Source: Dolomitihabitans soli (GTDB taxonomy: Bacteria > Actinomycetota > Actinomycetes > Streptosporangiales > Streptosporangiaceae). From it: a stretch of 64,000 bases of DNA. Positions within the stretch are counted from its first letter, which is position 1; each line of letters opens with the position of its first letter. The notes beneath the pieces are model-generated. The model worked only from the letters and a program-made list of their open reading frames with translations. It ran no database searches and was not told the origin of the DNA. Location of the stretch: contig NZ_JAKNTW010000001.1 in the NCBI RefSeq assembly GCF_022213955.1, forward strand, positions 992,001 through 1,056,000, read 5' to 3'. A program made the translations under genes and the position numbers. This document shows, piece after piece, positions 17,700 through 22,973 of the stretch.

Positions 17700-18359
17700 C
17701 TAAGGCTGCTTCTGGTCGGCGGGGTCGAAGAGGTCCACGGTCTTGTCCGCCCAGCGGTTCAGCAGGATCGTGTCGTGGCTGATCGCGAGCACGCCCGCGC
17801 CTGTGCGTTCCCGGTAGGCGTTCACCAGGCGGACCAGGTGGGCCTGGGTGGAGGCGTCGAGCATGGTGGTCATCTCATCGCAGATCAGGTAGCGGGGTTC
17901 GAGGGTCAGCGCCCTCGCCACGCAGGCCCGTTGCAGCTGGCCGTCGGAGACCTCGTGGGGGCGGCGGGTGAGGAGGTCGCCGGTGAGCCCGGCCTCCCCG
18001 GCCAGTTCGGCCACCCGGCCGTCGTCCGGCCGGCCGTTGGCGGTGAGCGGCTCGCGGATGACGTCGGCCAGCGTGAGGCGCGGATCGACCGCCAGCCTGG
18101 GCTGCTGGTAGATCAGCGCCACCCGGGTGCGAAGCTCACGCGGCGCGCGCTGCCGCCAGCGGAGCACGGGGTCGCCGTCCACCGTGAGCGTGCCCGACCT
18201 CGGGCGGAGCATCAGCGCCAGCACCCTGGCCAGCGTCGACTTCCCGCAGCCGCTCGGCCCGGCCAGACCGGTCACCACGCCGGGTTCGATGGTCAGGGAC
18301 GCGTCGTCCAGCGCCACCTGCCTGCCGTACCTCACCGTGATCCCGGACGCCTCAAGCAT
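17700..18359 (-). CDS. nikE: Nickel/peptide-type ABC transporter ATP-binding protein (NikE/DppF-like)
   Basis: A 219-residue ATPase with Walker A G-P-S-G-C-G-K-S, signature V-S-D-G-Q-L-Q-R and Walker B Y-L-I-C-D-E-M. The signature has Asp where LSGGQ normally has Gly, and the Walker B glutamate is kept. The ATG at 18359 follows AAGGAGAGTC and overlaps the nikD stop by 8 bp; an open extension of 16 codons upstream is ignored. It lacks the C-terminal oligopeptide extension (C-rich tail) that NikD has. The gene name is by cluster logic and the Nur-box-like site; a dipeptide transporter is the alternative. Confidence 0.8.
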   Translation of the reverse strand: MLEASGITVRYGRQVALDDASLTIEPGVVTGLAGPSGCGKSTLARVLALMLRPRSGTLTVDGDPVLRWRQRAPRELRTRVALIYQQPRLAVDPRLTLADVIREPLTANGRPDDGRVAELAGEAGLTGDLLTRRPHEVSDGQLQRACVARALTLEPRYLICDEMTTMLDASTQAHLVRLVNAYRERTGAGVLAISHDTILLNRWADKTVDLFDPADQKQP

Positions 18360-19326
18360 GACTCTCCTTCGCGATTTCCGGAGCCCTCGCGAGGTCCGGG
18401 GACGCAAGGGTGTGGTGACAGGCCACGCCGCCGTCCATCGGCGGCGACTCGGCGCAGCGCTCGGTGGCGTGCCCGCAGCGCGGCCGGAACGCGCAGCCCT
18501 CGGGCAGCCGGGTCAGCTCGGGCGGCAGTCCGGGGATCGGCACGAAGTCGCGGTCCGGCTGAGCGGCGACCAGCCCGGCGGTGTACGGATGGCGCGGCTG
18601 GCCGAGCACCCCGGCGGCAGGTCCCGTCTCCACCAGCCGGCTGGCGTACATCACGGCGAGGTCGTCGGCGACCCGCTCGGCAGCCCGCAGGTCGTGCGTG
18701 ATCAGCAGTACGGCCCGCCCCTCGTCGCACAGCTCCCTGAGTGTCCCCATCGCCCGGTCCACCAGCGGCTGGTCCAGCCCGCTCGTCGGCTCGTCGGCCA
18801 GGACCAGCCACGGGTCGCCGGCCAGCGCGATCGCGTTCGCCACCCGCTGGGCCATGCCGCCGGACAACTCGTGCGGATAGCGGTCCAGGTCCGCCGGGCG
18901 CAGGCCGTACCGCTCGGCCAGGTCGTCCGCGCGAGCGCTGGAGCCGAGCTCGTTGATCGCCTCCTGGAGCTGCGCCCGTGCCGTGCGGACCGGGGTGAGG
19001 TGGGTGGCGGGGCTCTGCGGGATCAGCCCGATCGCCCGCCCACGCACCCGCCTGGCCAGCACCTGCTGGGACGCGCCGATCAGCTCCACCGGCTCCGCCC
19101 CGCTCTGTTTCAGCCACGCCTCGCCGGAGACGGTCGCGTTGCCCGGCAGCAGGCCGAGCAGGGCGTGCGCGAGCACCGACTTGCCGCAGCCGGACTCGCC
19201 CACCAGGGCCAGGCACCTGCCGGGCCGTACCTCGAAGCTCGCCTCGCTCACCGCCCGCACCCGGGCAGCGGGAATGGCGAAGCTGACGCTCAGCCCCTCC
19301 ACCCGCAGCAGATTCCGGTCCGTCAA
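18352..19326 (-). CDS. nikD: Nickel/peptide-type ABC transporter ATP-binding protein (NikD/DppD-like)
   Basis: 324 residues with Walker A G-E-S-G-C-G-K-S, signature L-S-G-G-M-A-Q-R, Walker B L-V-L-A-D-E-P and a C-terminal oligopeptide/dipeptide domain (C-A-F-R-P-R-C-G-H-A-T-E-R-C, about residues 275-290). I chose the TTG at 19326, which overlaps the permease stop as TTGA with GGAG 8 bases upstream. An in-frame ATG at 19347 lacks a ribosome site. Confidence 0.82.
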   Translation of the reverse strand: MTDRNLLRVEGLSVSFAIPAARVRAVSEASFEVRPGRCLALVGESGCGKSVLAHALLGLLPGNATVSGEAWLKQSGAEPVELIGASQQVLARRVRGRAIGLIPQSPATHLTPVRTARAQLQEAINELGSSARADDLAERYGLRPADLDRYPHELSGGMAQRVANAIALAGDPWLVLADEPTSGLDQPLVDRAMGTLRELCDEGRAVLLITHDLRAAERVADDLAVMYASRLVETGPAAGVLGQPRHPYTAGLVAAQPDRDFVPIPGLPPELTRLPEGCAFRPRCGHATERCAESPPMDGGVACHHTLASPDLARAPEIAKESHA

Positions 19327-20129
19327 AGTTCCAGCTCCGATCGCCATCGGGGACTGCTGCGGTCGCGCCAGCGCTGGGCCAGCACCGAGATCGCCAGGGT
19401 GGGGGCCAGGATGAACAGGCCGGGCACCAGGCTCGACCACCAGTCGCCGGTGAGCAGCGAGCGCTGCCCGTCGTTGATCATGTTGCCGAGCGAGGCCAGA
19501 TGCGGCGGCAGGCCGAGGCCGAGGAAGCTCAGCGCGGTCTCGTGCCAGATGGCGTGCGGCACCATCAGCACGGTGGCCAGCACCAGATGGGGGAGCAGGT
19601 GCGGCAGCAGATGACGGCGGACCACCCGCATTCTGCCCGCGCCGCCGGAGACGGCCGCCTCCACGAACGGGCGGGTGCGCAGCGAGAGCACCTCAGAACG
19701 GACGATCCGCGCCGCCGTGGTCCAGTGGGTCACGCCGACGGAGACCACCACCGCGGCGGCGCTCGGCGCGAACAGCGCGACGATGAAGATGCCGAACAGC
19801 AGGTGCGGCAGGGCGTTGAAGCCGTCCACCACCCGCATGAGCAGGCGGTCGGGCAGGCCCCCCAGACTGCCCGCCGCCAGACCGATGGCCCCACCGATCA
19901 CCATGCTGACCAGCGCGGCGACCAGGCCCACCAGGAACGAGACCCGCAGGCCGTACACCGACCTGAGCAGGACGTCCCGGCCGACCTCGTCGGTTCCGAA
20001 GGGATGTGCGAACGACGGCGGCTGCCCGGCCGAGCGCAGGTCCACCAGGCTCTGGTCGAGCTGCACGATCGGCGGCAGCACCAGTACGGCGAGCGCCAGC
20101 ACCGCCAGGGTCCAGGTCGCGATCCGCAT
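19323..20129 (-). CDS. nikC: Nickel/peptide-type ABC transporter permease (NikC/DppC-like)
   Basis: A 268-residue inner-membrane permease with six predicted helices. It has the DppC family start (H-P-F-G-T-D-E-V-G-R-D-V-L-L-R) and a binding-protein-dependent transport loop E-A-A-V-S-G-G-A-G-R-M-R. Its ATG abuts the stop of the preceding permease. With NikB it forms the channel. Confidence 0.85.
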   Translation of the reverse strand: MRIATWTLAVLALAVLVLPPIVQLDQSLVDLRSAGQPPSFAHPFGTDEVGRDVLLRSVYGLRVSFLVGLVAALVSMVIGGAIGLAAGSLGGLPDRLLMRVVDGFNALPHLLFGIFIVALFAPSAAAVVVSVGVTHWTTAARIVRSEVLSLRTRPFVEAAVSGGAGRMRVVRRHLLPHLLPHLVLATVLMVPHAIWHETALSFLGLGLPPHLASLGNMINDGQRSLLTGDWWSSLVPGLFILAPTLAISVLAQRWRDRSSPRWRSELEL

Positions 20130-21110
20130 CTAGCCCACCCCCAGCGTGCGCACCCGCGGATCGGCCACGGTGTAGGCGATGTCGGCGAGCAGGTTGCCGG
20201 CCAGCACCGCCGCGGTGCCGAGCAGCGTCAATGCCGCCAGCAGCGGGAAGTCCACCGCCAGCGCCGCCTGCACCGAGGCGGCGGCGACCCCCGGCCAGGA
20301 GAAGACCGTCTCGACCAGGATCGCGCCGGTGACCAGTTCGGGCATCCGGGCGCCGAGCAGGGTGAGGAACGGCAGCAGCGCCGACCGCAGCGCGTGCCGT
20401 ACGATCACGGTCCGTTCGCGCAGGCCGCGGGCGCGCGCGCCGATCACGAAGTCCTCGCGGAGCACGCCGATGACCGACTCCCGCACGTAGAGGACCAGCC
20501 ACGACGACTGGGAGATCGCCAGCACGGTGACCGGCAGGATCAGGTGCGCGGCGACGTCACCCGGGCTGATCGTGGTCGAGGCCGCGTCGGTGAGCCCGCC
20601 GGCGGGCAGCCAGCCGAGCGTGACCGCGAAGATCCAGATGGCCAGCAACCCGAGCCAGAACACCGGGGCCGACTCGTTGGCGAACGCGCCACCGGTGATC
20701 ACCCTGTCCAGCCAGGAGCCGCGCCGCCAGGCGGCGAGGGTGCCGACCACCAGGCTGCCCGCGAACATCAGCACCAGTGCGGAGCCGGTGGCCAGCAGGG
20801 TCCAGCCGAGCCGCTCGCCGATGATCTCGGTGACCGGCCGGTGGAGCGACCTGGACTCGCCCAGTTCCCCGCTCACCAGGTTGCCGAACCAGGTGGCGTA
20901 CTGCTCGAGGACCGGGCGGTCCAGCCCCCAGTTGGCCCTGATCGCCTCGACCACCTCGGGCGAGGTGACCAGGGCGCGCTCACCGAGGTACTGCCTGACC
21001 GGGTCGAAGGGGGAGGCCTGTGCCAGGGCGAACATCACGATGGTGACGATCACCAGCAGGGGTACGGCGAAGGCCACCCGCCAGGCGACCATCCGGAGCA
21101 CGGCTCTCAC
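20130..21110 (-). CDS. nikB: Nickel/peptide-type ABC transporter permease (NikB/DppB-like)
   Basis: A 326-residue permease of the DppB family with the N-terminal F-D-P-V-R-Q-Y-L-G extracellular segment and the loop A-R-G-L-R-E-R-T-V-I-V-R-H-A-L-R. A GTG start overlaps the upstream stop as GTGA. About six transmembrane segments are visible. Confidence 0.86.
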   Translation of the reverse strand: MRAVLRMVAWRVAFAVPLLVIVTIVMFALAQASPFDPVRQYLGERALVTSPEVVEAIRANWGLDRPVLEQYATWFGNLVSGELGESRSLHRPVTEIIGERLGWTLLATGSALVLMFAGSLVVGTLAAWRRGSWLDRVITGGAFANESAPVFWLGLLAIWIFAVTLGWLPAGGLTDAASTTISPGDVAAHLILPVTVLAISQSSWLVLYVRESVIGVLREDFVIGARARGLRERTVIVRHALRSALLPFLTLLGARMPELVTGAILVETVFSWPGVAAASVQAALAVDFPLLAALTLLGTAAVLAGNLLADIAYTVADPRVRTLGVG

Positions 21111-22657
21111 GTCGCGGGCTTCCAGGCCGGGAGCCCGGCGAAGAGGCCGCCCGTGGCGTGCTCGTGCCCGTCCACGCCGGGCAGGATGCCGTCGTACTTG
21201 CCGCGGATCACGTAGACGTGCTTGAGGAACACCAGGTAGGAGTAGACCTGGTCATCCTTGATGATCTTCTGGAGGTCCGAGTACGCCTGCTCGCGGGTCG
21301 CCTCATCGCCCGCGGATCGGCCCTTCTCCAGCAGCTTGTCGGCCTCGGGGTTGTCGTACAGGCCCGGGTTGAAGAAGCCCTTGCCCTTGAAGTCGGAGTG
21401 GAACAGCTCGTAGTTGACGTAGTCGGGGTCGTACGGGCTGCCGTACCCCATCACGGCCGCGTCCTCGCCCAGTCGCGGTTCGATCGCGTCCCAGTCGAGA
21501 CCGGCGGGCTCCACCCGCAGGCCGATCTTCTTGGCGTCGGAGGCGGCGGCCAGTGCCAGTTCCTTGCGGAGCGAGTCGCCCGCCGGGTACATCAGGGTGA
21601 ATTCGGCCTTCCTGCCGTCCTTCTCCCTGATCCCGTCGCCGGCCTCGCGCCAGCCGGCCTCGTCGAGGACCTTCTTGGCCTGCTCCGGGTTGGTCTCGCC
21701 GGTCACTTCGGGGTTGTGCCACTTCGTGTCGGGTGAGATCGGGCCGTAGGCCGGTGTGCCCGAGCCGGCCAGGATCGCGTCCACCATCGCCTGCCGGTCG
21801 ACCGCCAGCCCGAACGCCTCCCGGACGGCCCTGTCGCCGGTCACCGGATGGGTCATCGGGAACAGGATCGCGCGGTAGTCGGCGCTCGGCACGTCGTACA
21901 CGGTCACGCCCTGCTGCCCGCGGAACTGGGCGGCGGCCTTCGGGGGCAGCACGGAAGCGTCGAAGTCGCCCGCCCGCAACCGGGTCGCCCGCACGTTGTC
22001 GTCGGGCGCGAAGGCGAGCACCAGCTTGGAGATCGCGGGAGCGCCGCCCCAGTACTCCTTGTTGGCCTCCAGCACGATCTTGTCACCCGGCGTCCACGAC
22101 ACGAACCGGTACGGACCGGTGCCCACCGGCTTCGTCTTCTCCAGGGTCCCCTTGGGCACGATGCCGAGCGTGGTGCGCTGCACGAGCGGGGCGTAGGCGT
22201 GCTTCAGCTCGAAGACCACGGTCCTCGGGTCGGGCGCCCGTACCTCCTTGATCGCCGCGTAGTCGCTCCTGATCGTGGAGTTGTTGGCGGGATCGAGCAG
22301 CGCCTCGTAGGTGTACTCGACATCTTCGCTGGTCAACTGCTTTCCGTCGTGGAACCTCAGCCCTTCCTTCAGGGTGAAGGTGACGGTTTTGCCGTCGCCG
22401 GCGACTTCTGGCTGCCCGGCGGCCAGCGCGGGCTTCAGCGTCAGGTCGGGCGACCGGCTCATCAGCCCGTCGAAGAACAGCGATCCCCCGTCGGGCGAGA
22501 ACCCGAGCACCGGGCTCAAGTTGTCGAACTCCGAGCTCAGACCGATGACGAACGTGTCGTCCGGCGCGTCGGCCGGGCCCTGCGGGACGGAACAGGCCGC
22601 CGCGAACAGGGCGAGGACGGCGCACAGCGCGGCGGACCTCCGGAGAGATTGAGTCAC
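21107..22657 (-). CDS. nikA: Nickel/peptide-type ABC transporter substrate-binding lipoprotein (NikA-like)
   Basis: 516 residues, SBP_bac_5 family. The N-terminus is a lipoprotein signal with lipobox F-A-A-A-C. Family text includes F-T-L-K-E-G-L-R-F-H-D-G-K-Q-L-T-S-E-D-V and P-V-G-T-G-P-Y-R-F. The GTG at 22657 was chosen because it places the signal peptide correctly; the open frame upstream encodes no signal and overlaps the smr gene. Ligand identity (nickel complex, peptide or opine) is not fixed by visible residues. The Nur-box-like element 18 bp upstream favours nickel. Confidence 0.82.
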   Translation of the reverse strand: MTQSLRRSAALCAVLALFAAACSVPQGPADAPDDTFVIGLSSEFDNLSPVLGFSPDGGSLFFDGLMSRSPDLTLKPALAAGQPEVAGDGKTVTFTLKEGLRFHDGKQLTSEDVEYTYEALLDPANNSTIRSDYAAIKEVRAPDPRTVVFELKHAYAPLVQRTTLGIVPKGTLEKTKPVGTGPYRFVSWTPGDKIVLEANKEYWGGAPAISKLVLAFAPDDNVRATRLRAGDFDASVLPPKAAAQFRGQQGVTVYDVPSADYRAILFPMTHPVTGDRAVREAFGLAVDRQAMVDAILAGSGTPAYGPISPDTKWHNPEVTGETNPEQAKKVLDEAGWREAGDGIREKDGRKAEFTLMYPAGDSLRKELALAAASDAKKIGLRVEPAGLDWDAIEPRLGEDAAVMGYGSPYDPDYVNYELFHSDFKGKGFFNPGLYDNPEADKLLEKGRSAGDEATREQAYSDLQKIIKDDQVYSYLVFLKHVYVIRGKYDGILPGVDGHEHATGGLFAGLPAWKPAT

Positions 22658-22674
22658 AAGAGAACTTCTATCAT

Positions 22675-22691
22675 TTGCAACTAAGTCGCAA
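22675..22691. promoter_or_regulatory. Nur-box-like operator upstream of the nik-type operon
   Basis: The sequence TTGCAA-CTAAG-TCGCAA is an inverted repeat with one mismatch and matches the Nur-box layout known from Streptomyces (TTGCAA-N5-TTGCAA). It lies 18 bp upstream of the nikA start codon, where a repressor would block transcription. It is also 27 bp before the divergent smr start. Confidence 0.5.
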
Positions 22692-22718
22692 TAAAGCGGG
22701 GGGCGTAGACTCCTCTCC

Positions 22719-22973
22719 GTGAAGCTCAAGCTGGATCTGCACCCGCTCTTCAACCGCGGCGGCGAGATCGACAAGGCACTGCGCGGCATCATCGACGAGG
22801 CCATCAGGAAGAAGGCCACCGAAGTCGAGATCATCCCTGGCAAGGGCTCGGGCCAGCTCAAGAAGAAGGTCCTGCGCTTCCTCGACCAGAAGGAGATCAA
22901 GGCCCTCTACCACCGCATCGACAAGGACTCCAAGAACCACGGCCGCCTGTTCGTCTACTTTCGTCACAAGTAG
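22719..22973 (+). CDS. Small Smr-domain protein
   Basis: An 84-residue stand-alone Smr domain. It has the family's L-D-L-H-P start, the basic helix R-K-K-A-T-E, and the core I-I-P-G-K-G-S-G-Q-L-K-K-K-V (G-K-G-x-G, near residues 40-50). Smr domains have endonuclease or nucleic-acid-binding activity in MutS2 and related proteins. The start is GTG. The 3' end is repeated at 24254-24268 (see the repeat entry). Confidence 0.85.
   Translation: MKLKLDLHPLFNRGGEIDKALRGIIDEAIRKKATEVEIIPGKGSGQLKKKVLRFLDQKEIKALYHRIDKDSKNHGRLFVYFRHK

Follow-up and report, generated by a model that had tools for sequence, protein, structure and literature searches.

Nur control of the kind proposed here is already known from Streptomyces, and the host site described below is very probably a further case of it. 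The Nur regulon of Streptomyces coelicolor includes nikABCDE and sodF, and the sections of the literature that treat it (PMC7055735, PMC3919588, PMC4531530) describe a system resembling that of the host in several respects. In both, a Nur orthologue lies beside ygfZ, the box has the 6-5-6 form, the targets (predicted ones in the host) comprise sodF and an operon of the nik type, and sodN has no box. The published consensus of the Nur box, as given in an excerpt of PMC3919588, is tTGCaa-N5-ttGCAA. According to the same excerpt, S. coelicolor Nur does not bind sodN, and a match of 16-19 nt between the sodF 3'UTR and the sodN 5'UTR underlies a small antisense RNA. The ygfZ neighbour of S. coelicolor nur is reported in a part of PMC4531530. 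Unlike Streptomyces, with its complementarity of 16-19 nt (PMC3919588, same excerpt), the host gave no long sodF/sodN complementarity in the searches described below, and it is set apart from S. coelicolor by two boxes at sodF and perhaps by a further box before a CbiM/NikM-type importer. As for transporters, the closest described systems are importers of the NikZ/YntA type, which are served by a solute-binding protein (SBP) of family 5. Binding of nickel has also been described for CcSBPII of Clostridium carboxidivorans, in a passage of PMC10317975 that makes no link to structure 8efz.

The window, by which the whole 64-kb stretch of analysed DNA is meant, corresponds to C17:992001-1056000 of host genome G000. 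It carries an ABC transporter operon in the order SBP - permease - permease - ATPase - ATPase (Table 1), which the initial annotation had given correctly, as judged by gene and domain assignment. The SBP gene starts with a GTG at 22657, followed by a lipoprotein signal. For the first ATPase gene, the real start probably lies at a smaller coordinate than 19440, the end of its longest open frame.

On the plus strand at 22675-22691 lies the palindrome TTGCAA-CTAAG-TCGCAA (TTGCAACTAAGTCGCAA), which differs from the Nur consensus by one mismatch. A Nur-box layout with one mismatch had been recognised in the initial annotation and is borne out, the palindrome being the sole match to TTGCAANNNNNTTGCAA at up to two mismatches within the window. 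The same source had placed the box 18 bp before the operon; its position directly upstream of the SBP start is right, but the distance to the first base of the GTG on the minus strand, when counted, is 17 bases. The match alone is weak evidence and only mildly unusual, because 0.19 matches at up to two mismatches are expected per window and at least one occurred in 19 of 100 window shuffles. A scan of 22600-22800 for consensus sigma-70 promoters found none, for the SBP gene or for smr, so that an overlap of the box with the SBP promoter is judged from distance.

The best explanation, which is regarded as highly likely on the genomic evidence set out below, is that 22675-22691 serves as a Nur operator, through which nickel-bound Nur would repress a NikZ/YntA-like nickel importer. 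With enough nickel in the cell, Ni-Nur would occupy the palindrome immediately before the SBP gene, block the promoter and so silence all five genes of the ABC importer. Under nickel shortage, Nur would release the DNA and the importer would be made.

Table 1. Features of the transporter operon, the candidate Nur box and the divergent smr gene (positions within the window).
Feature	Position	Strand	Remarks
ATPase 2	17700..18407	-	longest open frame; best NCBIfam match NikE, far below the NikE cut-off
ATPase 1, NikD/OppD-like	18352..19440	-	longest open frame
Permease 2, NikC/OppC-like	19323..20129	-	
Permease 1, NikB/OppB-like	20130..21110	-	
SBP, family 5 lipoprotein, NikZ/YntA-like	21107..22657	-	516 aa, GTG start
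Nur box (candidate), 6-5-6 palindrome	22675..22691	.	reads TTGCGA-CTTAG-TTGCAA on the SBP strand
TAGACT, presumed -10 of a leaderless smr promoter	22706..22711	+	from sequence; kept in most smr neighbours
smr, divergent gene with Smr domain (PF01713, 3e-15)	22719..22973	+	84 aa

Among SBP transporters of family 5, the one found here falls into the NikZ/YntA/AppA-like branch. It most likely imports nickel, with the metal perhaps chelated by histidine or some other small molecule. The nearest solved relative of the host SBP is by far 8efz (328 bits, 7.5e-97), whose entry, "Extracellular solute-binding protein family 5", names no substrate, and which is presumably a nickel-binding clostridial protein. 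It is followed by AppA (2e-58, 201 bits), 3ry3 (2e-57), the nickel-binding YntA 4ofl (2e-56) and 4oet (4e-54), the last of which we take to be CjNikZ, a nickel-binding protein of the Campylobacter type. The host SBP is thus related to solved nickel binders (4ofl, 4oet) and equally close to the oligopeptide-binding AppA, which scores about level with them. With the SBPs of NikZ/YntA-type importers (4oet, 4ofl/3ry3; E ~1e-54 to 1e-57) it shares membership of family 5 and a conserved C-terminal histidine region; unlike them, it is preceded by a Nur box, and its similarity to them in sequence is only distant. All nine of the closest sequences keep this region unchanged, including a histidine that lines up with the GH of 8efz and of 4oet. 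An AlphaFold model computed on nine close SBP sequences (A1) had a mean pLDDT of 48, too poor for a search by site or fold.

Against the NikA equivalog models, the SBP stays below the cut-offs, with 182.4 vs 393 bits for TIGR02294 and 181.5 vs 600 for Opp5A_nikA (NF045468). Because these cut-offs are missed and AppA is on a par with the nickel binders, sequence does not settle the substrate, and the case for nickel therefore comes from regulation and family, not from a membership result. The missed cut-offs and the high rank of AppA among the solved relatives would also suit a real Nur operator standing before a transporter with another cargo (oligopeptides, cobalt or a metallophore, for instance), and so would permease 2, the nearest model of which is the oligopeptide Opp4C. 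Such a cargo is nevertheless unlikely: a regulator specific for nickel would make little sense in control of general peptide uptake, YntA, which binds nickel, scores equal to AppA, and the C-terminal histidine is kept throughout the nine closest sequences.

The proposed nickel importer also has its expected regulator in the same genome. The Nur-type Fur protein presupposed by the initial annotation is encoded at C4:35514-35924 (L002:1465-1878), by one of four Fur-family genes of the host, and matches S. coelicolor Nur (3eyy) with E 8e-53 and 83 of 136 residues identical (61%). It shares with 3eyy the histidines 33, 70, 72, 75, 81, 88, 90 and 126 as well as four cysteines. The host protein lacks counterparts of S. 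coelicolor His86 and His87. Assigned by reading the sequences, a ygfZ-like gene adjoins host nur downstream, and the other three Fur genes adjoin znu-type transporter genes, a catalase and KatG. The host also encodes a Ni-SOD, and a search for NikR in G000 and G007 found it in neither.

Across the host genome, the loose motif (up to two mismatches) occurs at 35 places, two of which are identical stretches shown once. It is not over-represented, because a reversed control pattern occurs at 55. None of the 35 places is perfect and ten have one mismatch; these ten include two upstream of sodF and one upstream of a CbiM/NikM gene, which is followed by CbiQ and an ATPase. A sharper separation is given by a matrix trained on 48 boxes from other genomes, with the host genome left out. 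The nik site scores 30.2, the sodF boxes 29.7 and 28.8, and the cbiM box 25.1; the next score in the genome is 14.3, and the second-best within the window is -2.0. With matrix scores of at most 14.3, the remaining 31 of the 35 places are not read as Nur sites, and the best of them falls within a long open frame belonging to another gene. The initial annotation had expected the same motif near sodF/sodN and other nik genes, which holds for sodF (two boxes) and the CbiM/NikM importer (one) but not for sodN, which has no box. Elsewhere in the host genome, Nur thus very probably also represses sodF and the CbiM/NikM-Q-O importer, as the shared motif suggests. The two sodF boxes lie 52 bases apart (L006:1501-1569; G000:C3:230704-230772).

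Conservation of the box was followed at the SBP gene of related genomes. Of the 150 genomes in a family-wide search, 53 have an SBP match at E <=1e-60, and the box count covers 52 of these, one (G109) having been dropped for a gene cut by a contig end. Within the region scanned at each locus (-250..+20 around the start of the SBP match), the best box had no mismatch in 7 genomes, one in 29, two in 13 and three in 2, and one genome had none. Thus 49 of the 52 genomes have a box with up to two mismatches before the SBP gene, and two more have a degenerate one. Many of these genomes are close kin, however, so that independent events are fewer than the count suggests. Dinucleotide-shuffled upstream regions gave a mean of 0.12 of 52 at the same threshold, with 2 as the largest value in 100 shuffles. 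A coding-region control at the same loci, leaving out 14 of 52 that were too short, gave 0 of 38 at up to three mismatches. At 19 loci of more distant family-5 SBP relatives (L031-L049), no box was found at up to two mismatches. The TA steps flanking the box (-3/-2 and +18/+19), which were unused in finding boxes, are conserved too. Named relatives agree with this: in Streptosporangium amethystogenes, for example, where the SBP is 81% identical, the box lies 34 bases before the start of the match.

Nur orthologues of at least 60% identity occur in 52 of the 53 genomes. The exception, G007, has only two Fur proteins of about 30% identity (best match 32%, E 4e-11). This sole genome without Nur is also the sole one of the 52 without a box; since the joint absence was seen in this one genome, it counts as one event. 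A nik-type operon without Nur and without a box is present in G007 (L030, L179).

Fur-family sites in general are AT-rich palindromes, and with four Fur proteins in the host the palindrome might serve another of them, such as Zur or the Fur proteins beside catalase genes. This is quite improbable in view of the znu-type, catalase and KatG neighbours of the remaining three Fur genes, of G007, with two other Fur proteins but neither Nur nor a box, and of the company in which the motif occurs (sodF, CbiM/NikM), which is that of Nur. A chance match within an AT-rich intergenic gap, for which the 19 of 100 shuffles with a match and the genome-wide counts without enrichment might speak, is scarcely credible and already contradicted by conservation, with a box in 49 of 52 related loci vs 0.12 expected from shuffles. 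The box is more than chance because it is conserved in relatives. The Nur-box-like operator seen in the initial annotation is thus supported by the Nur gene in the genome, the boxes at sodF and CbiM, the conservation in relatives and G007; the box is near the operon start, a Nur orthologue is present, and known Nur targets share the motif.

Beyond the SBP gene, the box is distributed less evenly among the relatives. With partial matches left out (sodF L090 and L091; CbiM second pieces L112-L117), a box with up to two mismatches was found at 7 of 19 scanned sodF loci and at 11 of 20 CbiM loci, with three more of the latter at three mismatches. The sodF box is absent in G006, G007, G008, G010, G018, G021 and G023; of these, G008, G010, G018, G021 and G023 keep the box at the SBP gene though none is found at sodF. 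It may be that the Nur regulon of this actinobacterial family has the nickel importer as its constant core and sodF as a target that varies with lineage, that the switch from Fe-SOD to Ni-SOD works without the antisense RNA of Streptomyces, and that Nur and its operator were lost together in one lineage, a combined reading for and against which the chances seem about evenly balanced.

A sodF antisense RNA of the Streptomyces type was considered for the host and rejected. Comparison of the sequence downstream of sodF with the start of sodN (L006:2210-2610, L050:1400-1520) gave no complementary run of at least 12 nt. A 120-nt search gave 7 nt as its longest run; a wider search gave 11 nt, but this run lies 286 nt into the downstream stretch searched and outside the expected place. 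The duplex energy over 120-nt stretches was no different from that of shuffles, 95 of 200 of which were as low. The lack of such a match between sodF and sodN prompts one to ask what controls Ni-SOD outside Streptomyces.

With the proposed operator, a transporter that would otherwise be annotated as a peptide importer gains a likely substrate and control. The operator also extends the Nur regulon across an actinobacterial family with a large set of conserved boxes, and a matrix made from them can be used to search related genomes for nickel genes.

The divergent smr gene lies on the other side of the box. Seven bases separate TAGACT from the smr GTG (22719), and the box is located at about the -35 position of what looks, from its sequence, like a leaderless promoter. 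A gene for smr was found in 6 of the 52 loci, 15 of which are short stretches that possibly do not reach it. Two Planomonospora genomes have smr without an adjacent box. That smr may share the control, as initially suggested, is possible by position, but such sharing is not conserved among relatives and would not be the conserved purpose of the box. Among seven distinct genomes with smr near nik, five keep the combination of TAGACT and box, and shared Nur control of smr is plausible where the genes abut.
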